IMG/VR virus record: IMGVR_UViG_3300021376_002616
Coordinates: 1-27,085 of that record
DNA from: a virus
Length of the DNA: 27,085 nt
Reading direction: 5' to 3' (one strand)
Shown here: positions 2,499 to 24,150 of the stretch, in pieces
How the letters are laid out: every line of letters begins with the position of its first letter
Numbering within the stretch: position 1 is the stretch's first letter
Position numbers and translations under genes: made by a program
The notes under the pieces: generated by a model
The model's database searches: none
Told to the model about the DNA's origin: nothing
What the model saw: only the letters and a program-made list of their open reading frames with translations

Positions 2499-3299
2499 AT
2501 GCTTGCGAATGATGACTTAGGTAATCTTGGAAGACTTGGAAACCAGCTGTTTCAATACACTGCTTTGCGTGGTTTAGCAGCAAGGCACGGATATGAGTAT
2601 TGTTTACCTCCAAGAGAAGTTGTAGCGACAAGAGATGATAATTGTAGAAAATCAGATACTACAATATTTGAAACTTTTAAATTACCTGATGCTCCTCGCC
2701 ATGTTACAAACTTTCAAAAAATAATGGAAGCAAACTTTGGTCTTGATCAAAATCTTTGGGATCATTGTCCAGACAATATCAGTCTTTATGGATACTTTCA
2801 AACGGAAAAATATTTTAAACATATTGAAGAAGATATTCGTCAGGCATTTACTTTTGTTGACGAAATTAAACAACCTACTGAAGAAGCATTTCAATCAAAC
2901 TTTGGGGATACTGAAGTTATAGCAATTCATCTTCGTAGAGGTGATTATTTAAAGTATCCACATCATCCTGTTCAAGAACTTGAGTATTATGCTCAAGGAT
3001 TATCTCATATGCCTGAAGATATTCCTGTGATGGTATTTTCTGATGGCATTGAATGGTGTAAAGAACAAGAACTTTTTCAAGGCGATCGTTTTATCTTTGC
3101 TGAAGGAAACAGCACTGGAGTTGATCTTTGCTTACAGGCACTTTGTTCTTATCATATCATTGCCAACTCTTCATTTTCTTGGTGGGGTGCTTGGTTGGCA
3201 AAAAGTAAAAAAACTGTTGCTCCTAGTATTTGGTTTGCTGGTCCAGACGCTTTTAAAGATTTGAGTGATCTTTATCTTTCAGACTGGATCATCATTTAA
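2499..3299 (+). CDS. GT11 family glycosyltransferase (alpha-1,2-fucosyltransferase-like)
   Basis: The GT11 hallmarks are in order: GRLGNQLFQY at residues 11-20, HLRRGDY at 144-150 (the donor-binding HxRRGDY motif of GDP-fucose transferases), and NSSFSWWGAW at 223-232. Full length is 266 residues, normal for bacterial and phage GT11 enzymes. The family usually transfers L-fucose from GDP-fucose to a galactose acceptor. No GDP-fucose synthesis genes are in this window, so the donor would come from the host or the specificity may differ. It is the first gene of the cluster, starting 25 nt after a TATAAT element. A late-type octamer follows its stop. Confidence 0.85.
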   Translation: MLANDDLGNLGRLGNQLFQYTALRGLAARHGYEYCLPPREVVATRDDNCRKSDTTIFETFKLPDAPRHVTNFQKIMEANFGLDQNLWDHCPDNISLYGYFQTEKYFKHIEEDIRQAFTFVDEIKQPTEEAFQSNFGDTEVIAIHLRRGDYLKYPHHPVQELEYYAQGLSHMPEDIPVMVFSDGIEWCKEQELFQGDRFIFAEGNSTGVDLCLQALCSYHIIANSSFSWWGAWLAKSKKTVAPSIWFAGPDAFKDLSDLYLSDWIII

Positions 3300-3300
3300 A

Positions 3301-3308
3301 AATAAATA
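3301..3308 (+). promoter_or_regulatory. Possible late promoter inside the cluster
   Basis: AATAAATA, matching the NATAAATA late motif, lies 17 nt before the ATG at 3326 in the only real gap near the start of the cluster. It could give late transcription of everything from 3326 onward. Confidence 0.4.
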
Positions 3309-3325
3309 TTCAAAAAGTTGTACTT

Positions 3326-4879
3326 ATGAAAGTCGTTATTCCAATGTCTGGTATGAGTAGTAGATTTTCTGCTGCTGGATATACTATACCAAAATACCTG
3401 ATAGAAATTGACGGCAAAAAAGTCATAGAGCACATTGTAGATTTATATCCCAAAGACTCTGAGTTTATTTTTATCATTAACGACAAGCATCAAGAAGAAA
3501 CCGATATTATTGATATTCTGAATAAGTTAGTAGAAAAGAAAGAGATCGTCACAATACCTAGACACAAAAAAGGTCCTGTTTTTACTGTGTCTGAGTTTGA
3601 GGATTTGATTGATGATGATGAACAAGTCATTGTTAATTATTGTGATTTTTCAATGTATTGGGACTATCGTCATTTTAAAAAGTTTGTGGACTTTACTGAA
3701 TGTGATGGATGTGTTATTTGTTATACCGGATTTCATCCTCATATGTTAGGTAGTGATAATTATGCTTTTTGTAAAACGGATGAGAGTAATCAGATTTTAG
3801 AAATACGTGAGAAGCAACCATTTACAGATAATAAGATGTCTGAGTTTGCTTCGACTGGAACTTATTATTTTAGAAAGGGAAGTTATGTCAAAAAATACTT
3901 CAAGCAATTGATGAATGAAGATCTTAATATTAATGGTGAGTATTATGTAAGTCTTGTTTATAATCTTTTGATTCGTGATGGATTAGTGAATCTAGTTTAT
4001 GAGATTCCTTATATGCTTCAGTGGGGAACTCCTTTTGATCTTGATGTTTATAATAGTTGGTCAAATTATTATCGTAAAGCATTAGAGGGGCAAAAGGAAG
4101 TCAAATTGGAAAATTGTATTCTTGCTCTTCCTATGGCTGGAGCAGGAAGTCGTTTTTCTAAGGAAGGTTATGATGTTCCGAAACCATTTATTCCTGTAAA
4201 TGGAAAGATTATGGTCGAACAGGCAGTTAGATGTTTGCCAAAAACCGATGATGTTATCTATGCTTGTCTCAAAGGTCATCAGTCTCCTGGACAAAATACA
4301 GTATGGATTGATGAAGTATTAAAAGGTCAAGCTTGTACTACAGAACGAATTATTGATATATGTAATTCGGAATCTTCTATACTAATATCTGCGTGTGATA
4401 ATGGTGTATTTTACGATGCTGATAAGTTCTTAGAGTTGGTTGAGGATGATACAAATGATATCATTGTCTGGACCTATCGTAACAACTATACAAGTCATCT
4501 ACAACCAGAAGCATATTCTTGGGTTAAATGTGATGAAGAAGAAAATGTAAGTTACGTTGATGTTAAAAAGTTTAGTGGAACTGATCCAGTTAAAGAGTTT
4601 GCGATTACTGGAACAATGTTTTTTAGATCTCGTCAAGTTTTTCAACGATCTCTTTCATCTCTTTATGAAAATGATGTAAGAGTAAATGGTGAGTTTTATA
4701 TTGATAGCATGCTCAATGAAGCAATCTCACTAGGATATAAAGTTAAGAACTTTGAGATAGACAATTATATTTGCTGGGGAACACCTAATGATTTAAAAAC
4801 CTACGAGTATTGGCAAAGATTTTTTAATAAAGTTGAATGGCATCTTTATGAATATCAAAATGACTACTTTACCAATTGA
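3326..4879 (+). CDS. Tandem sugar-phosphate nucleotidyltransferase (two NTP_transferase domains)
   Basis: Two homologous GT-A-type nucleotidyltransferase domains are joined in one 517-residue chain. Domain 1 starts MKVVIPMSGMSSRFSAAGY with IPKYLIEIDGK. Domain 2 starts near residue 263 with LALPMAGAGSRFSKEGYD and VPKPFIPVNGK. Both keep the signature Arg and the Pro-Lys after the Gly-rich loop, a CD catalytic-type segment (YCDFSMYWD; SACDNGVFYD), and a C-terminal NGE(Y/F)Y and WGTP signature. The Gly-rich loop of domain 1 is the more divergent (GMSSRF against GAGSRF). Normal enzymes of this family are ~250 residues with one domain. The product is probably one or two NDP-sugars for the downstream transferases; the sugar is unknown. 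The next gene overlaps its end. Confidence 0.8.
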   Translation: MKVVIPMSGMSSRFSAAGYTIPKYLIEIDGKKVIEHIVDLYPKDSEFIFIINDKHQEETDIIDILNKLVEKKEIVTIPRHKKGPVFTVSEFEDLIDDDEQVIVNYCDFSMYWDYRHFKKFVDFTECDGCVICYTGFHPHMLGSDNYAFCKTDESNQILEIREKQPFTDNKMSEFASTGTYYFRKGSYVKKYFKQLMNEDLNINGEYYVSLVYNLLIRDGLVNLVYEIPYMLQWGTPFDLDVYNSWSNYYRKALEGQKEVKLENCILALPMAGAGSRFSKEGYDVPKPFIPVNGKIMVEQAVRCLPKTDDVIYACLKGHQSPGQNTVWIDEVLKGQACTTERIIDICNSESSILISACDNGVFYDADKFLELVEDDTNDIIVWTYRNNYTSHLQPEAYSWVKCDEEENVSYVDVKKFSGTDPVKEFAITGTMFFRSRQVFQRSLSSLYENDVRVNGEFYIDSMLNEAISLGYKVKNFEIDNYICWGTPNDLKTYEYWQRFFNKVEWHLYEYQNDYFTN

Positions 4880-5696
4880 TAAAAATATAAATGCTGTTTT
4901 AATGCTTCATTGGGGATGGACAGATCTTTTACAACACGTTGGAATGGTCAGATATTATCAGACGTTGTATAAGTCAGTCTCACTCATATGTTTGCCTCAT
5001 CAAAAAGAGTTTCTTGAAGCACTTTATCCCAACTTTGATTTAATTTTTGTTTCATCTCCAGATCATGGAGAAATTGATTCAGTCGCAAAGAGACTTTTTG
5101 ATGAAGATTATTTGTTTCTTTTAGATGGACATCAATGCTCACAATGTTTTACTCTTGCTTGTTTACGACAAAACTTTGATCCTCAATCTGAAATACAAAA
5201 AATAAATTGCGATTCTTTGAGTAAAACTTGTCTTCATCAAATATCTCAAATTAAAGAGATGGACGCAAATGATCCAGACTTTGATGAACGTATTGGATTT
5301 TATACTTTGTCGGGATTAGATCATTCGATTGCTTTTGATTATTTTAAAATTATTAGAGATCACATTGCCGAAGAAAGTAAATACAATGATCTTGTTTCAT
5401 CTCAAAATTATTCTGTAGTACATTATATTAATGGAATGGATCTTTCAAAGATACAATATCCATTAGTATATTTGAATGATCAATCATCAAAAATTATTGA
5501 TATGATTAAGGTGATTGAAAACGCAAAAGAAGTTCATTTGTATGATAGTCTTTATGGAATACTTTGTTATTTTTTATATTTTTCTGGACAACTTAAAGGA
5601 CCTAAATTATACTTACATAAGTATGTTAGAATGAAAATACCAAAGTTTTTTGACTATCAAAAAATGGCAAACTCTGGAGATTGGATTGTTCTATGA
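4860..5696 (+). CDS. Putative glycosyltransferase, unassigned family (paralog of 8178-8945)
   Basis: A 278-residue protein from ATG 4860; ATGs at 4833 and 4848 are alternatives with longer overlap. It begins with a GT-B-like pattern (NAVLMLHWGWTDLLQHVGMVRYY), where an alternation of hydrophobic strand and polar loop would bind a donor. The C-terminal half has ENAKEVHLYDSLYGILCYF, close in pattern to ENAKDIHLIENSISLFVYH in the protein at 8178. The two are clearly paralogs. That motif type is seen in LPS transferases with a GT9-like fold, but I cannot assign a CAZy family. It is followed by a GT61-like gene, exactly as its paralog is. Confidence 0.65.
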   Translation: MTTLPIDKNINAVLMLHWGWTDLLQHVGMVRYYQTLYKSVSLICLPHQKEFLEALYPNFDLIFVSSPDHGEIDSVAKRLFDEDYLFLLDGHQCSQCFTLACLRQNFDPQSEIQKINCDSLSKTCLHQISQIKEMDANDPDFDERIGFYTLSGLDHSIAFDYFKIIRDHIAEESKYNDLVSSQNYSVVHYINGMDLSKIQYPLVYLNDQSSKIIDMIKVIENAKEVHLYDSLYGILCYFLYFSGQLKGPKLYLHKYVRMKIPKFFDYQKMANSGDWIVL

Positions 5697-6778
5697 GTAA
5701 AATATATTATTGGAACGATGGAAGAACAAGACTGATTAAGGAAAAGGATGAGAATGGTAGAGATATAGAAGTCTCATATTTCTTTTCAGTTCAGTTTGTT
5801 GGTCTCTCAAAACATTATCCACAACCGTTAATATACTCTCATCAGACTCAAAAACTACATCTTCCAACCAAAGAAATGTTTATGTCTTTGGGACGTGGAA
5901 CAGTCTATGAGCAAACTATGGAATATGAAGTAAAATACCCTCTTAGGTTTGAAAACTTCTGTTCGGTTCCTGTATTTTACTTTGTGTATAATATGGCGAA
6001 CTATTATCATTTTATCTATGATACCTTACCATATCTGTATTCATATTTCAATGAGAAAGAGATTCATCCAGATCTGAAACTTCTTGTAAGTCCTCCAGAG
6101 GGTAAAGATGACTTATATCCCTTTGTCTGGGAGTGCCTGGAACTCTTGGGAATAGAAAAAAAAGATGTGGTGTTTCTTAACCCAGAAACTCTTTACAACA
6201 CGGTTGTGGTGGGATCTTCGTTGACTCACAATGGTCTTTCCAACACTCCACCACATTCAGGTGTATTTGATATTATCAACCGTATGAAGGGAGATCATCA
6301 AGGACCTGAGAAGATTTATGTCTCACGTAGAACTTGGTTACATAATAACTTTGAAAACATTGGAACCAACTACACTGAACGTCGTCGTTGTGTGAATGAG
6401 GATGAAGTAGCAGAACTCTTCAAATCTCAAGGATATGAAGAAGTCTTCTGTGAAAATATGACAATGAAAGAAAAAATAGGATTATTTAATTCAGCAAAGT
6501 ATGTTGCTGGACCTATAGGTGGCGGTATGTGTAATGTAATTTTTTGTTCATCAGAAACAAAAGTCATTTCAATCAATAGTCCTCTGTTTTTTGATATTAA
6601 TAAACGATTCGAATATTCAATGTTTCATACTCAACTTTATCATTTTAATGATACTGAGTTCATTGATAAGGTGGAAGAGAGTGTTGAAAGTGATGGAGCA
6701 CTATCAATTTCTGGTGGTCTAAACTCTCCTTGGAAGGTAGATCTAAATAAACTAAAAACATTTCTTAACAATGTCTGA
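5693..6778 (+). CDS. GT61-like glycosyltransferase (DUF563 type)
   Basis: ATG 5693 overlaps the preceding stop (ATGA), giving 361 residues; an upstream in-frame ATG at 5681 is less likely. GT61/DUF563 features are in order: NMANYYHFIYDTLPYL in the first third, PEKIYVSRRTW near the middle, RRRCVNEDEVAELF, and then MKEKIGLFNSAKYVAGPIGG followed by GMCNVIFC near the C-terminus, the conserved G-G nucleotide-binding end. GT61 enzymes include xylosyl- and other glycosyltransferases of bacterial polysaccharide loci and plants. Donor and acceptor are unknown. It overlaps the aldolase gene by 8 nt. Confidence 0.78.
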   Translation: MSKIYYWNDGRTRLIKEKDENGRDIEVSYFFSVQFVGLSKHYPQPLIYSHQTQKLHLPTKEMFMSLGRGTVYEQTMEYEVKYPLRFENFCSVPVFYFVYNMANYYHFIYDTLPYLYSYFNEKEIHPDLKLLVSPPEGKDDLYPFVWECLELLGIEKKDVVFLNPETLYNTVVVGSSLTHNGLSNTPPHSGVFDIINRMKGDHQGPEKIYVSRRTWLHNNFENIGTNYTERRRCVNEDEVAELFKSQGYEEVFCENMTMKEKIGLFNSAKYVAGPIGGGMCNVIFCSSETKVISINSPLFFDINKRFEYSMFHTQLYHFNDTEFIDKVEESVESDGALSISGGLNSPWKVDLNKLKTFLNNV

Positions 6779-7436
6779 AATACTAGAACTAGCAAAAGAG
6801 ATTAGCGAATACACCATATGTGGTGAAGGTAATGTTTCAGTTAGAGTAGATGATAATACTTTCTTAATCAAAGCAAGTGGAACAAGTCTTCATACTCTAT
6901 CTAACGAAGACCTGTCTTTATGTAATACAAATGGAGCACAAATAGAATTGTCTCATAAGAAACCAAGTATTGAAACTTCTTTTCATGCTTGGATTATGAA
7001 AACTTTTCCTGAAATAAACTTTATTGCTCATACTCATCCACCACATACAACAAAGATTTTGTGTTCTGAAGCAATTTATGATTTTGCCGAACATCGTTGG
7101 TTTCCTGATCAGATTGTAAGAAATGGAATCAAGTCTTGTATAGTTCCTTATGCTCCACCAGGACAAGCAATTTTAAAATTAGTCGAAAAGCACGTTTCTA
7201 AGTTTGTTGATTATGAAGGATTTTTTCCAAAGTTGATTCTACTTCAAAATCATGGTATAATTACAGCATCTACATCTAAAAAAGATTGTGCTGCCGCAAC
7301 TTTAATGTGTGAAAAGTCTGCTGATATTTTTATTGGAGCAAAACTTCTGGGTGGAGTTAAGTTCCTGACTAAACAAGAAGTTGCTGATGTTGATACTTGT
7401 CCAAATGAAAACTATCGGAGAAATATGTATCAATGA
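6771..7436 (+). CDS. Class II aldolase/adducin family protein (fuculose-/ribulose-phosphate aldolase-like)
   Basis: A 221-residue, full-length single-domain protein. GEGNVSVR (18-25) and KASG (34-37) form the phosphate-binding elements, Glu68 is the probable catalytic acid, and His87/His89 in AHTHP plus His160 in QNHG are the zinc ligands of the FucA/AraD fold. Family members cleave or epimerise sugar phosphates such as L-fuculose-1-phosphate and L-ribulose-5-phosphate, or dehydrate methylthioribulose-phosphate. In a glycan cluster it may build or interconvert a rare sugar phosphate ahead of activation. It is coupled to a HAD phosphatase gene (4-nt overlap). Confidence 0.85.
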   Translation: MSEILELAKEISEYTICGEGNVSVRVDDNTFLIKASGTSLHTLSNEDLSLCNTNGAQIELSHKKPSIETSFHAWIMKTFPEINFIAHTHPPHTTKILCSEAIYDFAEHRWFPDQIVRNGIKSCIVPYAPPGQAILKLVEKHVSKFVDYEGFFPKLILLQNHGIITASTSKKDCAAATLMCEKSADIFIGAKLLGGVKFLTKQEVADVDTCPNENYRRNMYQ

Positions 7437-7744
7437 AAGTCATTTATGTTGATATTGATGAGACCATTTGTCATCGGGAAACTTCCGTTGACTTTGGCAC
7501 AACTCACGATTATACTAAAGCAATACCAATTCAAGAAAATATAGAAAAAATCAATAAACTTTATGATGAAGGTCATACAATTGTTTATTGGACTGCTCGT
7601 GGATCTAGAAAACAAATTGACTGGACTAAATTAACTACAAAACAACTCAATGCTTGGGGAGCCAAATATCATGAGTTGAGAGTGGATAAACCATTTTATG
7701 ATTTGTTTATCGAAGATAAAGCATTAAGGATTGAAGAGTTATGA
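7433..7744 (+). CDS. Small HAD-superfamily phosphatase
   Basis: 103 residues with the minimal HAD core: motif I VDIDET (Asp7 nucleophile, Asp9 general acid), motif II WTARG (Thr54), motif III Lys86 in DKP, and motif IV IEDKA (Glu94-Asp95). No cap domain is present. It shares the segment TTKQLNAWGAKYHEL with the HAD domain at 20843 (TTKQLNDWGYKYHEL), so the two are recent paralogs, and a third copy lies at 12551. Capsule-type HADs of this size usually dephosphorylate small sugar phosphates. It sits between the class II aldolase and the GDPD-like gene. Confidence 0.85.
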   Translation: MKVIYVDIDETICHRETSVDFGTTHDYTKAIPIQENIEKINKLYDEGHTIVYWTARGSRKQIDWTKLTTKQLNAWGAKYHELRVDKPFYDLFIEDKALRIEEL

Positions 7745-8181
7745 TTCTTATATCTCATAGGGGGAATATTCGTGGACCTGTTCCTGAAAAAGAAAATCGT
7801 CCAAGTTATATTGATTGTGCTATTGGCAGTAAATATTATGTAGAAATTGACGTTCGTTTAATTAATGGTGAACTTTGGTTGGGGCACGATGAACCACAAT
7901 ATAAGATTGATCATAATTGGATAGAACATCGTAAACAATATCTTTGGATACATTGTAAAAATCTTGAAGCAGCAAAAGAATGTTCAAAATATCAGTCATT
8001 TTGTCATACTGAGGATCCTTTTACTTATACATCAACTGGCAAAATCTGGTTACACGATCTATCCATGAAAGTTGATAACAATACAATTATTCCTTTGATT
8101 GATAAAGAAGAAGTTGAGTCGTTTTTTATTTTTACTGAAAGTCCTTATGGAATCTGTACAGACTATCCAGCATTGCTATGA
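7741..8181 (+). CDS. Short GDPD-like (PI-PLC-fold) protein
   Basis: 146 residues. The glycerophosphodiester phosphodiesterase signature is clear: ISHRG (His6, Arg7), KENRPSY (Glu18, Asn19), VEIDVR (Glu35, Asp37) and GHDEP (His49). These are the metal-binding and catalytic residues of the TIM-barrel family. Typical GDPDs are about 230-300 residues, so this protein has only about two-thirds of a barrel. It may be a minimal form found in polysaccharide loci, or it may use a partner. A role in trimming or transferring a phosphodiester-linked substituent (for example glycerol phosphate) fits the context, but that is inference. ATGA couplings are on both sides. Confidence 0.72.
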   Translation: MILISHRGNIRGPVPEKENRPSYIDCAIGSKYYVEIDVRLINGELWLGHDEPQYKIDHNWIEHRKQYLWIHCKNLEAAKECSKYQSFCHTEDPFTYTSTGKIWLHDLSMKVDNNTIIPLIDKEEVESFFIFTESPYGICTDYPALL

Positions 8182-8945
8182 AAACGTTGTTGTTTTTTGT
8201 ATATGATGCTTTTGGGGATTGGATTTCTACAAATGGAATGATTCGTTATTTGTCTAAACAATATGATAAAGTGTATTTGGTCCATGATACTCCAGTTGTG
8301 ATTCCATTTACCAGTCATATGTTTAGAGATAATCATAAGATTATTCCAATTCATGGAAGTGCCTTATCAGAGGAAAGTTATGACGTTATTGATGTTCGAA
8401 TCCACGAAATTAATTATTGTCCAGCAAATAATGGAACATATTTCAACAAATTAAACAAGTTTGAAGATAATTCATTTCCAATTACTGATAATGCCTCTGC
8501 GTTTTATGCCGAATTGGGATTAAATCCTGAAATTAGAATATCTCATTTCTTTTATGAGAGAGACTATGAGAAAGAAGAAGAACTTTTTAAGTCTTTAAAT
8601 CTACCATCAGAATACTCTGTTATTTGTGAAATGAATGAAGGTAGTATTAATAGGGAATATATTAAGCACGATAAAATTGTCAATCTTCATAATCTAACGG
8701 ATAATTTTACTGATACTTTAAAAATTATTGAAAACGCAAAAGATATTCATTTAATTGAAAACTCAATATCTCTTTTTGTTTATCATACTCAACATATAGG
8801 AAAAATGAATCTCGTTCCTATTCATCTTCATGCATATGCTAGAAAAGAAAATCATCGTAGATGTGATGGTCCAGATTGTAATAATACATACTTAAATATG
8901 TTAAAATATCCTCAATTACAAAACTGGGATTTTATTTGGAAATGA
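8178..8945 (+). CDS. Putative glycosyltransferase, unassigned family (paralog of 4860-5696)
   Basis: 255 residues. The N-terminus (TLLFFVYDAFGDWISTNGMI) has the GD-x-x-x-x-NG pattern of GT-B transferases related to GT9 heptosyltransferases. The C-terminal third carries ENAKDIHLIENSISLFVYH, matching the paralog at 4860. It is followed at once by a GT61-like gene, mirroring the order at 4860-6778. Family number, donor and acceptor are unknown. Confidence 0.65.
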   Translation: MKTLLFFVYDAFGDWISTNGMIRYLSKQYDKVYLVHDTPVVIPFTSHMFRDNHKIIPIHGSALSEESYDVIDVRIHEINYCPANNGTYFNKLNKFEDNSFPITDNASAFYAELGLNPEIRISHFFYERDYEKEEELFKSLNLPSEYSVICEMNEGSINREYIKHDKIVNLHNLTDNFTDTLKIIENAKDIHLIENSISLFVYHTQHIGKMNLVPIHLHAYARKENHRRCDGPDCNNTYLNMLKYPQLQNWDFIWK

Positions 8946-9712
8946 AATATAAGATTGAACACGCCGGCGGTGATTTTATTTTTCATTGGTTTGTTTTAAT
9001 GTTGGGTGCGTTAAAACAAATTGATCTTTCATCAAAGGTTGATGTTTGTACTGACTATGATGGAAAATATACTGTCTATCAAAAAGAAACTTTTCAGATT
9101 TTAGATGATATTATTAATCTAGTTCCAGATAATGGAGACTCGCAGTTTTTACCATCAATTAAATGTCTTGGTGCTAAAAATGACAGTGGAATACACACTG
9201 TTGATCCTACAGTTTATACATTTTTAAGAGATCTATTTCTATCTCGTCTTCATCGTATGAAGAAGTTTGATACTTTTGAATATGAAAAAATATACATTCG
9301 AAGAAACAAATCTCATTTATGTGAAGGAAACAAGCAAGATAATAGTGCCAAAAGAAGGCAAATTATCAACGAAGATGAATTAGTTAAAGGTCTTCAAGAA
9401 CTTGGTATTAAATGTATTAATTTTGAAGATTATTCTGTTTCTGAAAAAATACAAATCTTTCAAGATTCTAAATGGATTATAGCACCACAAAGTGGAGGAT
9501 TGGTTTTTTCTTTATTTTCTGGACCAAGTACAAGCATTATTGAAATATATCCACCAGATCCTCATCAATATTGTGATCATTATATTGATATTTGTAATGT
9601 TTTAAATGTTCCATTTTATAGATATAAAAATGTACAAAAAGTGGATTATTATGATAATATGATTGTAGAGTCTTCTGAGTTTATTAAATACTTAAGAGAA
9701 TTAAATATATGA
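8942..9712 (+). CDS. Short GT61-like glycosyltransferase
   Basis: 256 residues from ATG 8942 (ATGA overlap; ATG 8936 is an alternative). It keeps the C-terminal GT61 half: YEKIYIRRNKSH, RRQIINEDELVKGLQELGI, VSEKIQIFQDSKWIIAPQSG and GLVFSLF. The N-terminal acceptor-side half is much shorter than in the 361-residue homolog at 5693. It may be a minimal form or a deletion derivative. ATGA overlap with the cupin gene follows. Confidence 0.68.
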   Translation: MKYKIEHAGGDFIFHWFVLMLGALKQIDLSSKVDVCTDYDGKYTVYQKETFQILDDIINLVPDNGDSQFLPSIKCLGAKNDSGIHTVDPTVYTFLRDLFLSRLHRMKKFDTFEYEKIYIRRNKSHLCEGNKQDNSAKRRQIINEDELVKGLQELGIKCINFEDYSVSEKIQIFQDSKWIIAPQSGGLVFSLFSGPSTSIIEIYPPDPHQYCDHYIDICNVLNVPFYRYKNVQKVDYYDNMIVESSEFIKYLRELNI

Positions 9713-10059
9713 GTCAAAATACTATGGAATTAAAACCGTGGGGTTCTTATACTAATCTTTTGGATGAGGATTACACTAAGGTCAAAAAAATTGTAATTCA
9801 TCCTGGAGAAGCACCTAGTTATCAATATCACTTTAAAAGAAGTGAGATATGGGTGATTGTAAAGGGAACAGCACAAGTCAAGATTGATGATGAAATCCAT
9901 TATTATAGAGTTGGTGATGTTGTTTTTATTCCAAAAGAATCGAAGCACCAGATCAAAAATATTTGTGAAGAGGAATTAATCTTTATTGAAGTTCAGTTAG
10001 GAACTTATTTTGGTGAAGATGACATTGTGAGGTTAGAAGACAAATATGGCAGACTATAA
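9709..10059 (+). CDS. Mannose-6-phosphate isomerase type II-like cupin (ManC C-terminal domain)
   Basis: 116 residues matching the cupin domain of bifunctional ManC/AlgA: PWG (10-12), a Tyr-Gln-x-His cluster followed by RSE (38-46, metal site), VKGTAQV, FIPKESKH (His80 metal ligand), IEVQ (93-96) and GEDDIVRLEDKYGR at the end. In ManC this domain interconverts fructose-6-P and mannose-6-P, and the guanylyltransferase is a separate N-terminal domain. Here the cupin stands alone, while the gene after it (14-nt overlap) begins with a nucleotidyltransferase domain. Stand-alone copies may instead isomerise or epimerise another sugar phosphate. Confidence 0.85.
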   Translation: MSQNTMELKPWGSYTNLLDEDYTKVKKIVIHPGEAPSYQYHFKRSEIWVIVKGTAQVKIDDEIHYYRVGDVVFIPKESKHQIKNICEEELIFIEVQLGTYFGEDDIVRLEDKYGRL

Positions 10060-13686: not shown

Positions 13687-13689
13687 TCA

Positions 13690-17473: not shown

Positions 17474-17476
17474 ATG

Positions 17477-18070
17477 ATGCCTAAAACAAAGAAAACGAAT
17501 GTTCCAGATCCTACAAGAGGAAAAACAAGACTGATTTGGGAACCCACTTATCAGTGGACAGTTAAGTTTTTTCAAGAACATCCAGAATTAAAAATTGGTG
17601 CTGAAATTGGTGTTGCGGGTGGTCAACACATTAAAGCAATTGTGGAAAATACCAATGTTGAAAAGATGTATGGTATTGATCCATATTATGATGAAGGTTG
17701 GGATATGCATGGATTTTTTGACGTGGATAAAGACTATGGTGGATTTGATGGTCTTTATGGTGAAGTTCGTGATATGTTGAGTGTTTATGGGGACCGAGTT
17801 GAATTAATTCGTAAAACATCTACAGAGGCAGCTCCAGACTTTGAGGATGGTTGTTTAGATTTTGTTTTTATTGATGGTTTTCATGACTATGAAAATTGCT
17901 TTAATGACATTAGTTTTTGGCATCATAGAGTTCGTGAAGGTGGATATGTGATGGGACACGATTGGGACCACGGAGCATATCCAGGAGTTCAGCAAGCAGT
18001 TGTTGAGCATTATGGTGATAAAGTCACGGGTATTCCTGGACCAGTGCATGTTTGGTATGTTCAAATATGA
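17477..18070 (+). CDS. Class I SAM-dependent methyltransferase (Methyltransf_24-like)
   Basis: 197 residues from the second of two tandem ATGs (17474, 17477). AGGAG at 17464-17468 lies 8 nt from 17477, one of the few good Shine-Dalgarno sites in the cluster. GAEIGVAGG (41-49) is motif I, YGIDPY is motif II, and FVFIDGFHDYEN (129-140) with GHDWDH form the metal-dependent catalytic region typical of macrocin-O-methyltransferase-like and CmcI-like enzymes. It probably acts on a sugar hydroxyl or carboxyl together with the FkbM enzyme next to it. It overlaps the following gene by 4 nt. Confidence 0.85.
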   Translation: MPKTKKTNVPDPTRGKTRLIWEPTYQWTVKFFQEHPELKIGAEIGVAGGQHIKAIVENTNVEKMYGIDPYYDEGWDMHGFFDVDKDYGGFDGLYGEVRDMLSVYGDRVELIRKTSTEAAPDFEDGCLDFVFIDGFHDYENCFNDISFWHHRVREGGYVMGHDWDHGAYPGVQQAVVEHYGDKVTGIPGPVHVWYVQI

Positions 18071-18762
18071 GAATCTGTATTCTTACAATAGCAACAAACA
18101 AATATATTCAGTTTGTTGAAAGACTTCTTGATAATATTGAAGAAAACTTTTTGAATGGGCACGAGATTGAATGTCTTCTTTTTACCGATCATGAAGTAGA
18201 AGCATCTGATAATGTAAGAGTTTGTCAGATTGACCACGAACCCTGGCCAATGCCTACTTTGAAGAGATACAACTATTTTGTAAAAGAAAAGGAGTTTATC
18301 TCTCAGTTTGATTATTGTTTCTACTTTGATGTGGATATGGGTCTTGTAAATAAGGTGGGTGATGAAGTTTTGAGCGACCTTGTTGCCACCATGCATCCCT
18401 ATCAGTCTTTCTATCCTAAAGAACAAAGATCTTATGATAGAAACCCAAAGTCACTAGCATATGTTCCTGTTGGTGAAGAAGGTGAATATTATTATGCTGG
18501 TGGATTTAATGGTGGATCTACAAAGAGATTTCTTGAGATGGCAGAGATTCTTGCTGACCGTGTAACCAAAGATCTTGAGAACGATGTTATTGCTCTCTGG
18601 CACGATGAGTCTCAAATGAATCGTTACTTAATTGATAATGCTCCGACACTTAGTTTGACACCATCATATTGTTTTGCTGAAGAAATGATGGGAAATCCAG
18701 ATTATCCTTATGAACCTAAAATTATTGCTTTGAAGAAAAATCACAATGAACTTAGATCTTAG
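18067..18762 (+). CDS. GT6 family glycosyltransferase (ABO / alpha-1,3-galactosyltransferase-like)
   Basis: 231 residues from ATG 18067 (ATGA overlap). The GT6 order is intact: PTLKRYNYFV, YFDVDMGLV with DVD at 88-90 as metal-binding DxD, LVATMHP (105-111), YYYAGGFNGGST (141-152), LWHDESQMNRYL (177-188, the conserved WHDES(H/Q)xN catalytic segment) and SLTPSYCF. GT6 includes the human blood-group A and B transferases and alpha-1,3-galactosyltransferase. It transfers Gal or GalNAc in alpha-1,3 linkage from UDP donors, often to fucosylated acceptors. The length is that of a bare catalytic domain, with no membrane anchor. It co-occurs with a GT11 fucosyltransferase at 2499. Confidence 0.88.
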   Translation: MRICILTIATNKYIQFVERLLDNIEENFLNGHEIECLLFTDHEVEASDNVRVCQIDHEPWPMPTLKRYNYFVKEKEFISQFDYCFYFDVDMGLVNKVGDEVLSDLVATMHPYQSFYPKEQRSYDRNPKSLAYVPVGEEGEYYYAGGFNGGSTKRFLEMAEILADRVTKDLENDVIALWHDESQMNRYLIDNAPTLSLTPSYCFAEEMMGNPDYPYEPKIIALKKNHNELRS

Positions 18763-19399
18763 AGAAATACCTTTTTACTATGTTAATTTAGACGACGCAG
18801 TAGAAAGAAAAACAAAAGTAGAAAGCACTTTAAAAGAACTTGAGATACAAAATATCAATAGAGTTTCTGCCATTCGTCATAGTAATGGATTTGCTGGATG
18901 TGCTCAGACTGTTAGTGATTTTTTACATCAAATCACTGATGGTCCTTTTGTGTTAATTGAGGATGATATTGCCGTTAAAAACTGGGATCCAATTATAGAA
19001 GTTCCAGATGATGCTGATGCTCTTTATCTTGGGATTTCTGGGTGGGGAAGAATGAACGGACACTCTGGACCTTTTGTTCAGTGGGATATTGTTGATGAAA
19101 AACTTCTTCGTGTTTATAATATGTTGGGTGGACACGCAATTGTGTATCTTTCTTCAGAATGGGTCGAAATGGTAAGAAGATGCTGTCATCATGCAGGATA
19201 TGTAATTCAAAGTTACTATGATATTCCAGTAGCAGAGGTTCAGAGATTTTTTAATGTTTATGCTTTAGATGATCCTTATTTTTATCAGACAAGTTCTGAT
19301 GGAAATCAGAAAGTCACTTATGAAAAACTTTCTACTCAACAATCTTTGGAATGTTTTTCTTATATTCCACAATTATTTTTACCTGAAAAAATTAACTGA
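18746..19399 (+). CDS. GT25-like glycosyltransferase (LOS/LPS type)
   Basis: 217 residues with the GT25 opening IPFYYVNLDDAVERK (8-22), ISAI-type RVSAIRHSNG, GCAQTVSDFL (51-60) and FVLIEDDIAV (68-77) with the EDD metal motif at 72-74. The SSEW-type helix follows in the C-terminal half. GT25 enzymes act in lipooligosaccharide and collagen glycosylation. The usual R-x-x-G-E-x-GC-x-x-SH signature is reduced to FAGCAQTVSD, so this is a divergent member; a second, more typical GT25 lies at 23281. It overlaps the GT6 gene by 17 nt. Confidence 0.75.
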   Translation: MNLDLREIPFYYVNLDDAVERKTKVESTLKELEIQNINRVSAIRHSNGFAGCAQTVSDFLHQITDGPFVLIEDDIAVKNWDPIIEVPDDADALYLGISGWGRMNGHSGPFVQWDIVDEKLLRVYNMLGGHAIVYLSSEWVEMVRRCCHHAGYVIQSYYDIPVAEVQRFFNVYALDDPYFYQTSSDGNQKVTYEKLSTQQSLECFSYIPQLFLPEKIN

Positions 19400-20346
19400 T
19401 GTATATTGCTTCTTGTCCTTTGAGAGTTTCTTTATTTGGAGGATCTACCGATAATCCATACTTTGTTAAAAAGTATGGTAAGGGATCGGTAATAAGTTTT
19501 ACATCAAATCTCAAAACTTATATTACCTTACACGAAGACAAACTTGGTTATAACATGCAAGGTCATAAGTATATTGTAAATTACTCTAAGAGAGAGGAAA
19601 CTGAGTTTATTGGTGATATTAAAAATGAATTGGTTCGAATTGTTTTGAACTATTTTGGATGCTTTCCATTGACAGTGAGTATGACAAGTGATGCTTACTC
19701 GCAAGGAAGTGGTTTAGCATCATCTTCATCTTATATCATTTCTTTGATTAAATGTATTTCGATGTTTAATGAATTAAATCTGACTGATATTGAGATTTGT
19801 GAGTTAGCTCTTCAGTTGGAACAGGAAATGAATCCTTATTGTGGTTATCAGGATCCTTATGGATGTGGTATTGGTGGATTTAAAAAAATTGATTTTGAAA
19901 AAGGTGGAATTATTAAATATGACTTCTTATCTACCGAACTCTTTAAACATTATGATGTTCATTTGATTTTTACTGGAGTCACTCGAAACTCTAAAAATGT
20001 TTTACATGATGTAACCGCAAATATTGATAAATCATTACCTTTACTTCAAACAGTGGATGAGGCATATGATGCTTTGCGAAAAAAAGATTTTGCTTTATTT
20101 TTACAACTTTTAAATTATAGTTGGGAACAGAAGAAACAAACAAGTTCTTTAATTACTGAAAATCCAAAGATTCAAGAGATAGATCAGAATCTTACGGAGT
20201 GTAAAGAAGTCATCGCGCACAAGTTGTGTGGTGCTGGAAATGGAGGATTCTTTTTAACTTTTTCAGAACCAAATACCTTGTGCTTTTCTTATAAATCAAT
20301 TAAAATAGACGTAGAATCGAATGGTGTAATGGGGTATAAAGTATGA
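19399..20346 (+). CDS. hddA: GHMP-family heptose-7-phosphate kinase (HddA-like)
   Basis: 315 residues. The N-terminus PLRVSLFGGSTDNPYFVKK (7-25), GHMP motif 2 QGSGLASSSS (102-111), Asp in YQDPYGCGIGG, and the C-terminal motif 3 CGAGNGGFFL (substrate closure) match D-glycero-D-manno-heptose 7-phosphate kinases and related fucose/galactose-type kinases. HddA phosphorylates C1 in the alpha configuration to give heptose-1,7-bisphosphate for the GDP-heptose route. It is followed at once by the isomerase that makes its substrate, which strengthens the heptose call. TGATG coupling to the preceding gene. Confidence 0.82.
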   Translation: MYIASCPLRVSLFGGSTDNPYFVKKYGKGSVISFTSNLKTYITLHEDKLGYNMQGHKYIVNYSKREETEFIGDIKNELVRIVLNYFGCFPLTVSMTSDAYSQGSGLASSSSYIISLIKCISMFNELNLTDIEICELALQLEQEMNPYCGYQDPYGCGIGGFKKIDFEKGGIIKYDFLSTELFKHYDVHLIFTGVTRNSKNVLHDVTANIDKSLPLLQTVDEAYDALRKKDFALFLQLLNYSWEQKKQTSSLITENPKIQEIDQNLTECKEVIAHKLCGAGNGGFFLTFSEPNTLCFSYKSIKIDVESNGVMGYKV

Positions 20347-20846
20347 ATCCATTTGCTGAATATGTAAATGTGCTTCAGTGCGCTCATATGAGTAATGAGT
20401 TTGAAAGATTTCGTGAAGCATTTCAGAATCATCCAAGAATTATTATTTTAGGAAATGGTGGGAGTAATTCTGTTGCCTCTCATATCTCTCAAGACTATAT
20501 GAAGTTTCATGGAAAGAAAGTATCAATTCTTTCAGATCCTTCAATGATTACAATGCTTACGAATGACTTTGGGTATGAAAATGCCTATCAAAAGTTTCTA
20601 GAGTATTATGTTGAAAGTGATACTCTGGTTATCATTATGAGTTCTGGAGGTGAGTCAAAAAATATGTTAAACGCTCAAGAATGGTGTGAAGTTAATAAAG
20701 TTGACTATGGAGTCTTGACTGGATTTGCTCCAAATAATAGTATTCGAACTAGAGCAACTAATGCTTTATGGAATTATTATATTAGTAGTGATGACTATGG
20801 TGTTGTTGAATGTGTTCATCAAATCTTTCTTCATGGGGTAGTATGA
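20343..20846 (+). CDS. gmhA: Phosphoheptose isomerase (sedoheptulose-7-phosphate isomerase)
   Basis: 167 residues, a SIS-domain protein: ILGNGGSNSVASHISQDY (phosphate-binding loop from residue 35), LTNDFGYENAYQKFLEYY (GmhA signature), and IIMSSGGESKNML. The C-terminal ECVHQIFLHG carries the Gln-x-x-x-His zinc-site pattern of GmhA. It converts sedoheptulose-7-phosphate, available from the host pentose-phosphate pathway, to D-glycero-D-manno-heptose-7-phosphate, the first step of NDP-heptose synthesis. It is slightly shorter than the ~190-residue bacterial enzymes. ATGA overlaps lie on both sides, between the heptose kinase and the phosphatase-nucleotidyltransferase fusion. Confidence 0.9.
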   Translation: MNPFAEYVNVLQCAHMSNEFERFREAFQNHPRIIILGNGGSNSVASHISQDYMKFHGKKVSILSDPSMITMLTNDFGYENAYQKFLEYYVESDTLVIIMSSGGESKNMLNAQEWCEVNKVDYGVLTGFAPNNSIRTRATNALWNYYISSDDYGVVECVHQIFLHGVV

Positions 20847-21559
20847 AATATTGTTTTGATATTGATGGCACTCTTTGTGATACTCCTAATAATGAGAAAG
20901 GTAAACCCGACTATCTAAACGCAAAACCAATTCCTTTTATGGTGGAGCAAGTCAATCGTTTGTATGATGAAGGAAATTATATTATTTTACAAACTGCTAG
21001 AGGTAAAGGATCAGGAATTGATCATACCGAACTTACAACAAAACAACTCAATGATTGGGGATATAAGTATCATGAGTTGTTTCCAATGTTTTGTAAACCA
21101 ACTGCCGATATATTCATCGATGATAAGGGCATAAATGTTGAGGATTGGAAAAAAACTCAACCACAAATTAAAGGGATTATTGGAGGAGCATTTGATCTAA
21201 TTCATCCAGGATATGCTAGAATGTTCAAACAATGTAAGCAATATTGTAATCATCTTACTGTCGCATTACATGAAAATCCGTCTTTAGAGAGACCAAAAAA
21301 GTTGCCTCCAGTTCATTCAATTGAAGAAAGAAAAGAAGTTTTACAGGCAATTAAATATATTGACGACATTGTTGTTTATCAATTAGAAAACACTTTTCTG
21401 TCTTATTTGAGTGATTATGATATTAGATTCTTGGGTGATGATTATAATGATGGATCTTATACTGGTAAAGATCTAGAAATCAAAATTGTCTTTATAAGTC
21501 GAGATCATGATTATTCTACAACAGAATTAAAAAGAAAAATTGTAAAATCTTGGAGGTAA
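20843..21559 (+). CDS. Fused HAD phosphatase and cytidylyl-/adenylyltransferase (GmhB-like plus HldE-C/TagD-like)
   Basis: 238 residues from ATG 20843 (ATGA). Residues 1-100 are a HAD core: FDIDGT (Asp6, Asp8), TARG (Thr51), Lys85, IDDK (Asp93-Asp94). Residues 109-238 are a nucleotidyltransferase: IKGIIGGAFDLIHPGYARMF (HxGH-type loop, here HPGY at 121-124), PVHSIEERKEVLQAIKYIDD, RFLGDDY, and SRDHDYSTTELKRKI (ISTT-like motif). Together with GmhA and the HddA-like kinase it would remove the C7 phosphate of heptose-1,7-bisphosphate and attach a nucleotide to heptose-1-phosphate. TagD-like glycerol-phosphate activity is the alternative for the second domain. The next gene follows after 1 nt with a good ribosome site. 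Confidence 0.85.
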   Translation: MKYCFDIDGTLCDTPNNEKGKPDYLNAKPIPFMVEQVNRLYDEGNYIILQTARGKGSGIDHTELTTKQLNDWGYKYHELFPMFCKPTADIFIDDKGINVEDWKKTQPQIKGIIGGAFDLIHPGYARMFKQCKQYCNHLTVALHENPSLERPKKLPPVHSIEERKEVLQAIKYIDDIVVYQLENTFLSYLSDYDIRFLGDDYNDGSYTGKDLEIKIVFISRDHDYSTTELKRKIVKSWR

Positions 21560-21560
21560 A

Positions 21561-22457
21561 ATGAAATCAATAGTGACAGGTGGAGCAGGATTCATCGGAT
21601 CTCATATAGTGAACAAACTTTTGAATATGGGTCATGAAGTGATTGTCATTGACAATGAGTACTCGGACAATGATAGTTTTCATTGGAATGATCAGTGTCA
21701 GAATTACAAGTTGGATATATGTGATTACGAATCTACTCGGTCTCTTTATGATGGAGTTGATTATGTTTTTCATTGTGCCGCAGAAGCACGTATTGGACCT
21801 GCGATTGAAAATCCAACAAATGCTGTTCGAATTAATTCATTAGGCACTTGTATGGTTCTTCAGTGTGCTCGTGAGGCAGGTGTAAAGAGAGTAATGTATT
21901 CTTCGACTTCTTCTGCCTATGGTCTTGCTAATCAATCCCCGAATGTGGAAACACAACCAAATGATTGTTTAAATCCATATTCAGCATCTAAGGTATCTGG
22001 TGAAGAGTTTTGTAAAATGTATACAAGTTTGTATGCTTTACCGACTGTAATTTTTAGATATTTTAATGTTTATGGTGAACGAGCTCCACGTAAGGGTCAA
22101 TATGCTCCCGTGACTGGTATTTTTCTTCGTCAAAAAGAATCAGGAGAGTCTCTTACTGTTGTTGGTGATGGTCAACAGCGTCGTGACTTTGTTTACGTTG
22201 GTGATGTTGCGAACGCAAATATTATGGCAGCAATTTCAAATCCAGAACCAGAAGCATTTGGTCAGATTTATAATGTGGGAACAGGTAATAATTATTCTGT
22301 TCTTCAAATTGCTCGAATGATTTCTGATGACATTGTACATATCGCACCAAGACCTGGTGAAGCAAGAACAAGTCTCGCAAATATTTCTAAAATTAAAAAT
22401 ACTTTTGGGTGGAAACCATCTATGAAACTTGAAGATTGGATTGGAGCACATTTATGA
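21561..22457 (+). CDS. NAD-dependent nucleotide-sugar epimerase/dehydratase (extended SDR)
   Basis: 298 residues. TGGAGFIGSH (6-15) binds NAD, FHCAAEARIGP is the NAD-contact strand, SSTSSAYG carries the catalytic Ser/Thr, and YSASK carries the Tyr-x-x-x-Lys pair. FRYFNVYGER and RRDFVYVGDVANA are typical of UDP-hexose 4-epimerases and NDP-sugar 4,6-dehydratases or epimerases. GGAGG at 21552-21556 lies 4 nt before the ATG. Coming directly after the heptose genes it could be the NDP-heptose epimerase, but the sequence looks more GalE/WbpP-like, which would also supply UDP-Gal or UDP-GalNAc to a GT6. Confidence 0.85.
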   Translation: MKSIVTGGAGFIGSHIVNKLLNMGHEVIVIDNEYSDNDSFHWNDQCQNYKLDICDYESTRSLYDGVDYVFHCAAEARIGPAIENPTNAVRINSLGTCMVLQCAREAGVKRVMYSSTSSAYGLANQSPNVETQPNDCLNPYSASKVSGEEFCKMYTSLYALPTVIFRYFNVYGERAPRKGQYAPVTGIFLRQKESGESLTVVGDGQQRRDFVYVGDVANANIMAAISNPEPEAFGQIYNVGTGNNYSVLQIARMISDDIVHIAPRPGEARTSLANISKIKNTFGWKPSMKLEDWIGAHL

Positions 22458-23281
22458 CTGTTCAGATTTTTACCACTGTAGTGAATCGACCAGATTTTGT
22501 TGAAATACAATATAAACTTTTTGGTAAGTTTTTAAAGGATGAATATCAATTTCATGTTGTTGATGATTCTATTGATGAGACTATTTCAAATGACTTTAAA
22601 AATGTTTGTGACAAACATAAGATTCATTATTATCGCAAACCACAAAGCGAAAATAAAAAGTTTGATAATCCATTAGCAGGTGCTCGTCACGCAACAGAAA
22701 CAATTCAATGGACTTATGATAATCTAATTAAAAAAAATCACTCCACAGATTTAATTTTGTTCTGTGATTCTGATATGTTTTTATTAGATGATTTTTCTTT
22801 GTATGAGTATATGGAGAATGAAGTCATCGCAGGTCATCTTCAAGTTAGAGGGCATGTAAAATACATTTGGAATGGTCTAATGTTCTTTGATATGAAAAAG
22901 ATTTGTGAGATTGATTCAAATCTTGATTTTTCTGATGGTGTAGTTGAAGGTCAAATGACAGATATTGGTGGTCATCTTTATCCATATTTTAAAGAGCATA
23001 ATATTCAATTTAAAAGAATCAATGATAGTGGAACTGATGGAGAAGACTATCCAGAATATCCATCTGAATATAATGGAGTTCAGATTCCAGTTTTATTAAC
23101 ATCTGATATGTGGTGTAAACCTGAAGATGGATATAATTTTGAACTTCATATGAATGGTAAGTTTCTTCATTATCGAGCCGGAACAAATTGGCATACTCAA
23201 ACAAGTTGGAAAAGTAAAGAAGATCCTCTTAAAATCAAGGCAGAAATATTCAATCAAATTATTAAAGATTTCATCGACTAA
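22454..23281 (+). CDS. Putative GT-A glycosyltransferase
   Basis: 275 residues from ATG 22454 (ATGA). The N-terminus VQIFTTVVNRPDFVEIQYKL resembles nucleotide-diphospho-sugar transferases. DLILFCDSDMFLL (99-111) gives a DSD metal site followed by a hydrophobic strand. The acceptor half has WNGLMFFDM and FLHYRAGTNWHTQ, with a His close to the end that could complete the metal site. The family is not assigned. The stop overlaps the next ATG (TAATG). Confidence 0.7.
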   Translation: MTVQIFTTVVNRPDFVEIQYKLFGKFLKDEYQFHVVDDSIDETISNDFKNVCDKHKIHYYRKPQSENKKFDNPLAGARHATETIQWTYDNLIKKNHSTDLILFCDSDMFLLDDFSLYEYMENEVIAGHLQVRGHVKYIWNGLMFFDMKKICEIDSNLDFSDGVVEGQMTDIGGHLYPYFKEHNIQFKRINDSGTDGEDYPEYPSEYNGVQIPVLLTSDMWCKPEDGYNFELHMNGKFLHYRAGTNWHTQTSWKSKEDPLKIKAEIFNQIIKDFID

Positions 23282-24075
23282 TGGATAAAAATAAAGCAGT
23301 ACATAAACTCAAAGGTCTTCCTCCCATTTACTATCTTAATCTGGATGAACAACCAGAAAGAGCAAAGTATATGGAAGAACAATTTAAATATTGGGAGATT
23401 GAAAATTATACTCGTATTTCTGCTTATGACGGAAGAGATGGAAGAGATCTGGGAGATATTTTAAAAGGTAGGTATCCAGACAATATGTCTTCTGGTGAAG
23501 TAGGATGTGTGACCTCTCATCTCAAAGCAATCAAACACTGGATGGAGACTTCTGATAGTCCTTGTGCCTTAATGATGGAAGATGATTGTGATCTCAGTAC
23601 AGCATCACATTGGACTTTTTCTTGGAAAGATTTTTATGCCAAAGTTCCTTATGATTATGATGTAGTTCAACTTGCTATTATTAACCCAGCACAAGTTCAT
23701 TTACAATTACATCGAAGGTTTGTCAATGATTTTTCTACTGCTTGTTATATGATTACTCGTCATCATGCAGAAAAGTTAATTCGTCTTCATTGTCGTGATG
23801 GTAAGTATAAACTTGATCAAGGAGTCAAACCCAGAGCAGTTGCTGATGATTTAATTTACAACTCTGGCAATACCTTTGCGATTCCTTTATTTCTTTATAA
23901 GATTGAACTTGGTTCCTCTATTCATGACATTCATATTGATGTTTTTCATCGCAGCAGTTATGAAGGTCTTTGGCAGTTCTGGAAAAATCAAGCGGCTGAT
24001 ATAGAAGATTGGAGTGCTATTTTTGACTATGATCCTTATTTTGGTCGCATTCCACCAGGTTGGGAAGGTAAATAG
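23281..24075 (+). CDS. GT25 family glycosyltransferase (LPS type)
   Basis: 264 residues with full GT25 features: IYYLNLDEQPERAKYMEEQF (16-35), ISAYDGR (46-52), SGEVGCVTSHLKAI (71-84, the diagnostic GExGCxxSH segment) and ALMMEDDCDLS (96-106) with the EDD metal site at 100-102. The last part carries DDLIY and SSIHD. Bacterial homologs add Gal or Glc to LOS/LPS. It is the last gene of the cluster; a 46-nt gap separates it from the promoter at 24122. Confidence 0.88.
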   Translation: MDKNKAVHKLKGLPPIYYLNLDEQPERAKYMEEQFKYWEIENYTRISAYDGRDGRDLGDILKGRYPDNMSSGEVGCVTSHLKAIKHWMETSDSPCALMMEDDCDLSTASHWTFSWKDFYAKVPYDYDVVQLAIINPAQVHLQLHRRFVNDFSTACYMITRHHAEKLIRLHCRDGKYKLDQGVKPRAVADDLIYNSGNTFAIPLFLYKIELGSSIHDIHIDVFHRSSYEGLWQFWKNQAADIEDWSAIFDYDPYFGRIPPGWEGK

Positions 24076-24121: not shown

Positions 24122-24150
24122 TTGACAAATCTTAATATTTCCTATATAAT
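24122..24150 (+). promoter_or_regulatory. Perfect sigma70 consensus promoter of the hli-petF operon
   Basis: TTGACA (24122-24127), 17-nt spacer, TATAAT (24145-24150): exact consensus. It lies 27 nt before the hli start. It would let the host vegetative sigma factor transcribe the photosynthesis/redox genes early in infection. Confidence 0.88.

Follow-up and report, generated by a model that had tools for sequence, protein, structure and literature searches.

A glycan gene island with fixed ends and an exchangeable interior in T4-like cyanophages

The window analysed here, a 27,085-base fragment of a virus that infects marine or freshwater cyanobacteria (IMG/VR record IMGVR_UViG_3300021376_002616), carries an island of 28 glycan-related genes (g1 to g28, positions 2499-24075). 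Comparison with related islands showed that it is a cassette, of which the fixed ends are kept by related phages and the interior is exchanged as multi-gene modules. The 5' end consists of a wcaG RNA and a terminator-promoter element similar to the PeSLs of T4-like phages, and the 3' end consists of a gene of glycosyltransferase (GT) family GT25 and the strong sigma70 promoter of hli, which encodes a high-light-inducible protein. These fixed ends and the modular interior were missed by the first-pass annotation of this DNA, which had described a phage-borne cluster for glycan biosynthesis and assembly. In the reading that we favour, at a probability of about 0.5, the island would be a single-promoter glycan cassette that modifies the lipid A-core of the host.

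Layout of the Island

All 28 open reading frames (ORFs) between 2499 and 24075 are real and lie on the + strand, as had been claimed, and competing ORFs on the - strand were no longer than 121 aa. When the junctions were counted by hand, with ATG starts wherever available, neighbouring genes overlapped at 23 of the 27 junctions (by 1-32 nt, and by exactly 4 nt at 14 of them), and the other four were gaps of 0-26 nt. The attribution to a T4-like cyanophage held as well: the flanks are closest to S-SRM01 (79% DNA identity over 328-2317), and the cluster is of the same kind as the lipopolysaccharide (LPS) cluster of P-SSM2.

Exchange of the Interior

We compared 38 islands, which were the wcaG-to-GT25 stretches of 34 contigs and those of the window, S-SRM01, DSL-LC03, and P-SSM2 (8.1-23.2 kb). 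Of their 715 ORFs, 708 are oriented from wcaG toward GT25, and the coding coverage is 0.94-1.02. The 708 island proteins fell into 220 families at 50% identity, of which 112 were found in a single island and only five reached half of the islands, and the median Jaccard index of gene content was about 0.1-0.2 for most island pairs. The GT25 proteins of some pairs are 95-98% identical, yet these islands have few genes in common (one family in the case of contigs G020 and G029).

Within this diversity, certain genes co-occur exactly: g2 and g5 (module M1) in the same 6 islands, g11 and g12 (module M2) in the same 8, and g23 and g24 (module M3) in the same 4. The presences of these modules require 4-6 changes each on the GT25 tree, which is weakly resolved, and the best relatives of the window modules sit in different islands. 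The G+C content of the interior is below that of both flanks in most islands (27-37% versus 39-41% in the window). Pfam matches were tallied over 163 families (30% identity), with the 25 commonest families given for each batch. A RuBisCO-like protein (RuBisCO_large, best E 3e-44), which is unexpected there, was found inside the glycan island of contig G006 and assigned to L129:8452-9687 by motif and sequence.

The ratio of nonsynonymous to synonymous substitution rates (dN/dS) was 0.04-0.30 for the 26 testable window genes compared with their nearest relatives, and its median across the islands was 0.094 (339 pairs, none above 0.5). With an architecture that recurs in 38 islands and 26 testable genes under strong purifying selection, the cluster is far beyond chance.

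By a hydropathy rule, 702 of the 708 island proteins had no membrane-like segment and none had two or more; the rule is simple and was checked on one positive control locus, that of Escherichia coli K-12 O16, where it found nine segments in Wzx and six in Wzy. Nor was a lipid-priming transferase of the WecA/WbaP type found among the Pfam matches of the window. Thus, the islands appear to lack a flippase, polymerase, ligase, exporter, and polyprenyl-phosphate transferase and are not self-sufficient O-antigen or capsule loci. A bacterial-type O-antigen or capsule locus was therefore rejected, as no membrane component was found in any of the 38 islands. The term "assembly" in the first-pass annotation was thus overstated: neither the window nor the 37 related islands encode a polytopic membrane protein. 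Given that the enzymes are soluble only, the acceptor must be accessible from the cytosol, i.e., lipid A-core before its export by the host, a protein of the phage or, with lower likelihood, another acceptor. To judge from its genes, the cluster can build and link sugars but needs an acceptor in the cytosol and export by the host.

The 5' End

The 5' boundary is marked by a wcaG RNA (RF01761; 2315-2417, + strand), which scored 74.1 bits with the covariance model (gathering score 42), begins 23 nt past the stop of the preceding gene, and occupies the same place in relatives. It was present in 42 of 50 GT25-bearing records, nearly all of which were picked by GT25 alone, and in 41 of these 42 it lies on the same strand as GT25 and 8-23 kb upstream of it, the exception being G035. 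Because at least four of the eight records without it (P-SSM2, AG-345-E02, and contigs G033 and G039) have long upstream sequence, the wcaG RNA is frequent but not obligatory. In seven records (G007, G011, G012, G014, G016, G021, and G028), we also noticed a second, weaker copy that precedes the main one, in most cases by no more than about 10 nt, which suggests tandem elements.

Directly 3' of the wcaG RNA is a hairpin with an 11-bp stem (2436-2462) and a T-run, which overlaps with a sigma70-type promoter composed of a -35 box (TTGCAT, 2445-2450) in the loop region, a 17-nt spacer, and a -10 box (TATAAT, 2468-2473); the combined element extends over 2436-2473 of the + strand. At the matching position, DSL-LC03 has a perfect TTGACA-N17-TATAAT. 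Among 28 distinct sequences of this element, the T-run and TATAAT are invariant, TTGCAT and the 17-nt spacing are nearly so, and the stem varies with compensation, although the invariance of TATAAT is a selection effect because the sequences were picked for it. The stem is supported by covariation in these 28 sequences: 96.8% of the cells were paired, and double changes were found in 33 cells compared to 8.9 after shuffling, a level reached by none of 500 shuffles. Sliding the stem partners by 1-3 columns lowered the pairing to 39-67%. In its strict form, i.e., hairpin, T-run, and TATAAT, the element was independently found at the 5' end of 31 of the 38 islands, compared with 3 copies in 569 kb of island interior and 17 copies in 179 kb of flank.

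PeSLs of other T4-like phages are described in PMC4503421 (citing Arbiol 2010; Comeau 2014) as cassettes of a terminator stem-loop and an early promoter. With the hairpin of an intrinsic terminator, a T-run, and an overlapping promoter of the sigma70-type early class, the predicted element of the window matches this definition. It may act as a recombination site for the exchange of modules, with which the mosaic interior of the islands would fit.

The terminator and promoter stand between the wcaG RNA and g1, and in about half of the islands the RNA starts 22-31 nt past the preceding stop. A perfect sigma70-type promoter farther upstream (TTGACA-N17-TATAAT, consensus match, 1514-1542, + strand) is the likely source of transcripts running into the wcaG RNA. 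That this RNA lies upstream of the island promoter calls a simple 5' riboswitch role into question. To judge from its placement, the RNA may form the 3' end of a transcript from upstream or the leader of an attenuator, and not a plain 5' leader as proposed by Weinberg et al. (PMC2864571), who tied it to exopolysaccharide and high-light genes. An alternative that concerns regulation only, and would hold for any target, is that the wcaG RNA acts as a riboswitch in a 5' leader, responds to a metabolite related to sugar or light, and governs readthrough of the adjacent terminator into the island, with an incidental -10 box. We regard this as quite possible, though its chances are less than even. 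The order of an aptamer-like RNA and then a terminator, classic for attenuators, is in its favour, and so are the tandem wcaG copies. The constancy of both promoter boxes and of their spacing next to a variable stem sequence, however, suggests a working promoter downstream of the wcaG RNA, and the short distance from the preceding stop in about half of the islands leaves the RNA no room for a promoter of its own.

The 3' End

GT25 closes each of the 38 islands and is likewise the last gene in every isolate examined. Clusters ending in the same GT25 were found in S-SRM01, P-SSM2, DSL-LC03, S-T4, ACG-2014f, Sf-CH8, DSL-LC02, S-SSM7, and SynMITS9220M01; in most of these nine phages hli comes shortly afterwards, usually accompanied by ferredoxin, and psbA is found further on. 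The window GT25, g28 (23281-24075, Pfam), is 72-76% identical to its P-SSM2 orthologue (T4-GC 266) over 264 aa. The resemblance of g28 to a bacterial GT25 beta-1,4-galactosyltransferase, mimivirus R655, and human collagen galactosyltransferase does not decide its acceptor. GT25 was identified in 97 phage records, all of them from cyanophages or marine viruses, and its relatives are encoded on 381 viral contig stretches. No relative was found in cells among 84,980 species scanned, a weak negative as the scan used two exact peptide patterns only.

Between g28 and hli, the window has a perfect sigma70 promoter (TTGACA-N17-TATAAT, consensus match, 24122-24150, + strand). A sigma70 promoter with at most one mismatch lies within 250 nt past GT25 in 32 of 37 islands, compared with 5% of random stretches. 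The genes hli, ferredoxin, and psbA come directly after the cluster (24178-26601), with hli at 24178-24372 and ferredoxin at 24472-24765 (both + strand) serving as anchors of the 3' flank.

Island Enzymes and Flanking Features

That nearly all of the genes belong to sugar families was a somewhat generous claim, as 17 of the 28 proteins scored above the Pfam gathering score about five matched weakly (HAD, SIS, and nucleoside triphosphate transferase), and the remainder had no assignment. Six transferase families are indeed represented, and Pfam confirmed eight glycosyltransferases: GT11 (g1, fucosyltransferase family, 2499-3299), GT61 (g4, 5693-6778; g9, 8942-9712), GT2 (g16, 14528-15271; g17, 15268-15981), GT47 (g18, exostosin type, 15978-16853), GT6 (g21, 18067-18762), and GT25 (g28). 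A relative of g1 is found in 37 of the 38 islands, and g21 shows 81% DNA identity to P-SSM2. A second GT25-like protein is encoded by g22 (18746-19399; profile comparison, 98% probability). The claimed total of about a dozen transferases is plausible but unproven, as g3 (4848-5696), g8 (8178-8945), g14 (12922-13686), g15 (13690-14535), and g27 (22454-23281) have no family match; g3 is a possible glycosyltransferase, g27 has a DSD motif and is a possible GT-A transferase, and g15 has a relative in one other island only. The protein encoded by g7 (7741-8181) matches phrog_34507, which has no named function.

Other Pfam families include a double nucleotidyltransferase, class II aldolase, mannose-6-P isomerase-type cupin, GHMP kinase, CTP-transferase-like domain, epimerase, and two methyltransferases. 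The last are g19 (FkbM, 16847-17473) and g20 (class I, Methyltransf_24, 17474-18070), and the epimerase is g26, a putative NAD-dependent sugar epimerase/dehydratase (21561-22457; Pfam and NCBIfam) with relatives in 36 of the 37 other islands. Module M1 comprises a tandem double nucleotidyltransferase (g2, phrog_3980, 3326-4879) and a class II aldolase/epimerase (g5, AraD/FucA-like, 6771-7436), both assigned by profile matches; g6, a small HAD phosphatase (EcbF/BcbF-like, weak match), follows at 7433-7744. In module M3, g23 (19399-20346) is an HddA-like GHMP kinase, i.e., of the heptose 7-P kinase type, by Pfam and NCBIfam, g24 (20343-20846) a GmhA-like sedoheptulose-7-P isomerase by NCBIfam, and g25 (20843-21559) a HAD-like N-terminus joined to a TagD/RfaE-II-type nucleotidyltransferase by Pfam and NCBIfam. 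Enzymes of the GmhA, HddA, and nucleotidyltransferase types are thus adjacent as g23-g25, a candidate GDP/ADP-heptose pathway, with family matches below equivalog cut-offs; the best NCBIfam matches of g23 and g24 were HddA at 94 bits and GmhA at 50 bits.

Module M2 (g11-g12) is preceded by a mannose-6-P isomerase-type cupin (g10, 9709-10059, Pfam) and followed by a small HAD phosphatase (g13, 12551-12925, weak match). The g11 protein (10046-11593) is a fusion, the N-terminal nucleotidyltransferase domain of which has CTP:phosphocholine cytidylyltransferase (LicC-like) as its best profile match, and the C-terminal domain of which is choline/aminoglycoside-kinase-like and carries the motif HGDFILDN. 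The g12 protein (11590-12579) has no Pfam or NCBIfam match. Its AF2 model (pLDDT 88.8) is that of a TIM-barrel aldolase-like protein with 3txv (KbaZ/GatZ-like, TMq 0.71) as the best PDB match. PDB searches with g8, g12, g22, and g27 gave no useful solved relative. Among phage records no relative of g12 exceeded 45% identity and none was found in named cyanophages, the best being from a single-cell marine virus (45%). Its cellular relatives, at about 50%, are from marine Bacteroidetes and mostly have no neighbours related to window genes. On eight other contigs, including those of an alphaproteobacterium, a flavobacterium, a spirochaete, and an archaeon, g12 relatives lie near g10/g11 relatives. 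Relatives of all three, i.e., cupin, nucleotidyltransferase-kinase fusion, and KbaZ-like protein, were seen clustered together in loci L179-L187 and L196. As these relatives are co-located in several bacteria and an archaeon, g10/g11/g12 probably represent a pre-existing pathway for an activated sugar or polyol.

The upstream flank has tRNA-Ser (TGA, 3-88) and tRNA-Pro (TGG, 1418-1489), both found by ARAGORN on the + strand, and a glycine-rich ORF (121-330) that by eye resembles a tail-fibre C-terminus. Behind the promoter at 1514, and directly ahead of the wcaG RNA, are three small conserved phage genes (70, 77, and 79 aa; 1565-2291, + strand), a 5' flank in common with S-SRM01. Downstream, a peroxiredoxin gene (25155-25694) comes after hli and ferredoxin; peroxiredoxin is also present in S-SRM01, DSL-LC02, and DSL-LC03, and 21 of 64 GT25 loci carry one. 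A PhotoRC-II RNA (26172-26281) precedes psbA, which is split (26320-27085): exon 1 has 93 codons, and the ORF behind it extends past the end of the contig. At the matching place in psbA, S-SRM01 has a site-specific endonuclease and then the next psbA part.

Comparison with Known Systems

LPS clusters close to hli03 were reported for P-SSM2, S-SM2, and S-SSM7 by Sullivan et al. (2010), according to whom it was not known whether they were functional or stuffer DNA (PMC3037559), and the kind of locus found in the window is therefore already known. Its construction rules, i.e., fixed ends, a modular interior, and freedom from membrane proteins, seem to be new. As in those hli-adjacent clusters, the window cluster is placed before hli/ferredoxin/psbA and has the GT25 orthologue, nucleotide-sugar enzymes, and several glycosyltransferases. 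The three clusters and the window island are alike in genomic place, last gene (GT25, T4-GC 266), gene classes, and nearby tRNAs. The window island differs in that it is among the largest (28 genes) and carries module M2, and it has a wcaG RNA while P-SSM2 does not. S-SRM01 and DSL-LC03 share with the window the flanks, the wcaG RNA, the PeSL-like hairpin, and GT25 with hli, ferredoxin, and peroxiredoxin; S-SRM01 also shares the split psbA. Their islands are shorter (13.6 and 9.8 kb, respectively) and consist mostly of other genes, including those for GDP-fucose synthesis, which the window lacks.

In the islands, as in bacterial O-antigen and capsule loci of the Wzx/Wzy or ABC type, the ends are constant, and the nucleotide-sugar and transferase genes between them are variable and low in G+C. 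In contrast to those loci, none of the 38 islands has a flippase, polymerase, ligase, ABC transporter, or initiating transferase. Like the PeSLs, the window element joins the stem-loop of a terminator to an early sigma70 promoter and borders on a plastic region; it differs from them in that one element marks one boundary, beside a structured RNA, where it may serve exchange.

Chloroviruses and mimivirus have virus-encoded cytosolic sugar synthesis and transferases. Their glycan pathways resemble the window cluster in their GT25-like enzymes; those pathways decorate virion proteins of eukaryotic viruses.

Proposed Function and Acceptor

The precursor and transferase genes suffice for an unusual oligosaccharide, as had been suggested, although its completeness goes beyond what they can tell. 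In the favoured reading, host RNA polymerase would transcribe the island early from the PeSL promoter, and the soluble enzymes would make several activated sugars: a heptose-like sugar via g23-g25, one or more further activated sugars via g2/g5/g6, and a cytidylyl-activated sugar via g10-g13. Some 8-14 transferases in the cytosol, together with two methyltransferases, would then attach these one after another to a single acceptor on the cytosolic side, yielding a phage-specific outer structure. The acceptor would most likely be the host lipid A-core, which host transporters would then carry to the surface, and the altered surface would change the phage receptor or the target of grazers during infection. 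Recombination between the conserved ends and between modules would let phages swap glycan types.

Sigma70 promoters are found at both ends of the island, and no late box (TATAAATA) was found at the 5' end; these predicted early-type promoters lean toward the host cell as the target. The LPS of marine Synechococcus contains neither heptose nor KDO (PMC4515613), so that a heptose pathway would introduce a foreign sugar and thereby change the surface. According to a review, there is no evidence of DNA glycosylation in cyanomyoviruses (PMC2984593).

Several points weigh against modification of host lipid A-core from a single promoter. The -35 box of the window element (TTGCAT) is three mismatches off TTGACA, and the promoters are consensus matches; the structural model of g28 is moderate (pLDDT 74); and six or seven window genes are without an assigned function. 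Superinfection exclusion by a lytic phage via 10-28 genes is costly compared to single-gene solutions, and soluble-only enzymes with foreign sugars fit virion glycosylation equally well. A literature search found no infection-transcriptome paper on the LPS genes. Weighing host LPS against the virion as the target, we place the former at about even odds and the latter below them.

In virion glycosylation, the same cytosolic enzymes would decorate the capsid or tail fibres with a phage-specific oligosaccharide, as those of chloroviruses and mimivirus do, and we consider this a serious, if less probable, possibility. It agrees with the absence of polytopic membrane proteins from all 38 islands, with a self-contained precursor supply in which the foreign sugars are self-made, and with the resemblance of the constant GT25 to mimivirus R655 and collagen galactosyltransferase, besides the bacterial enzyme. 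In addition, tail-fibre genes lie several kb or less from the island in P-SSM2 and ACG-2014f. The early-type promoters and the lack of a late promoter at the 5' end, however, are not in its favour, and no report of glycosylated cyanophage virions was found in a literature search. A bolder proposal, which we think unlikely but worth stating, is that the island is a phage "serotype" locus, i.e., a mobile, end-anchored cassette through which T4-like cyanophages would each have a glycan of their own, the most striking case being a glycan on the virion itself, with the terminator-promoter element beside the wcaG RNA as the exchange joint.

It is improbable that the product or substrate of the island is instead a different host glycan or a small conjugate (exopolysaccharide, glycolipid, or storage sugar), or that the island draws off carbon: the reported association of exopolysaccharide and high-light genes with the wcaG RNA (PMC2864571) and the adjoining hli/ferredoxin/psbA genes would suit such a role, but export machinery is absent from the island, and the number and diversity of the transferases suggest ordered addition to an acceptor. 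Stuffer DNA, i.e., functionless LPS genes filling a large head as raised in PMC3037559, would accommodate the great differences in gene content among phages and the occurrence of LPS clusters in larger genomes (PMC3037559), but is rejected by the low dN/dS and strongly disfavoured by co-directional ORFs with near-complete coding coverage and by conserved regulatory ends.

Implications

The signatures of selection, intact ORFs, and conserved regulatory ends over 38 islands argue that cyanophage LPS genes work, a question left by PMC3037559. The absence of membrane components narrows the acceptors to those that can be reached from the cytosol, which makes the choice between LPS and virion testable, and the arrangement at the 5' end offers a fresh clue to the still unsolved wcaG RNA. 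The fixed ends suggest a swap of surface-glycan types among phages, and relatives of this virus probably differ in the sugar coats that they make or in how they coat their hosts; this would have consequences for the host range, superinfection, and grazing of abundant microbes of the ocean. If the "serotype" proposal is true, bacterial viruses would use enzymes of their own to produce a multi-sugar coat and to vary it, like the giant viruses of algae and amoebae.

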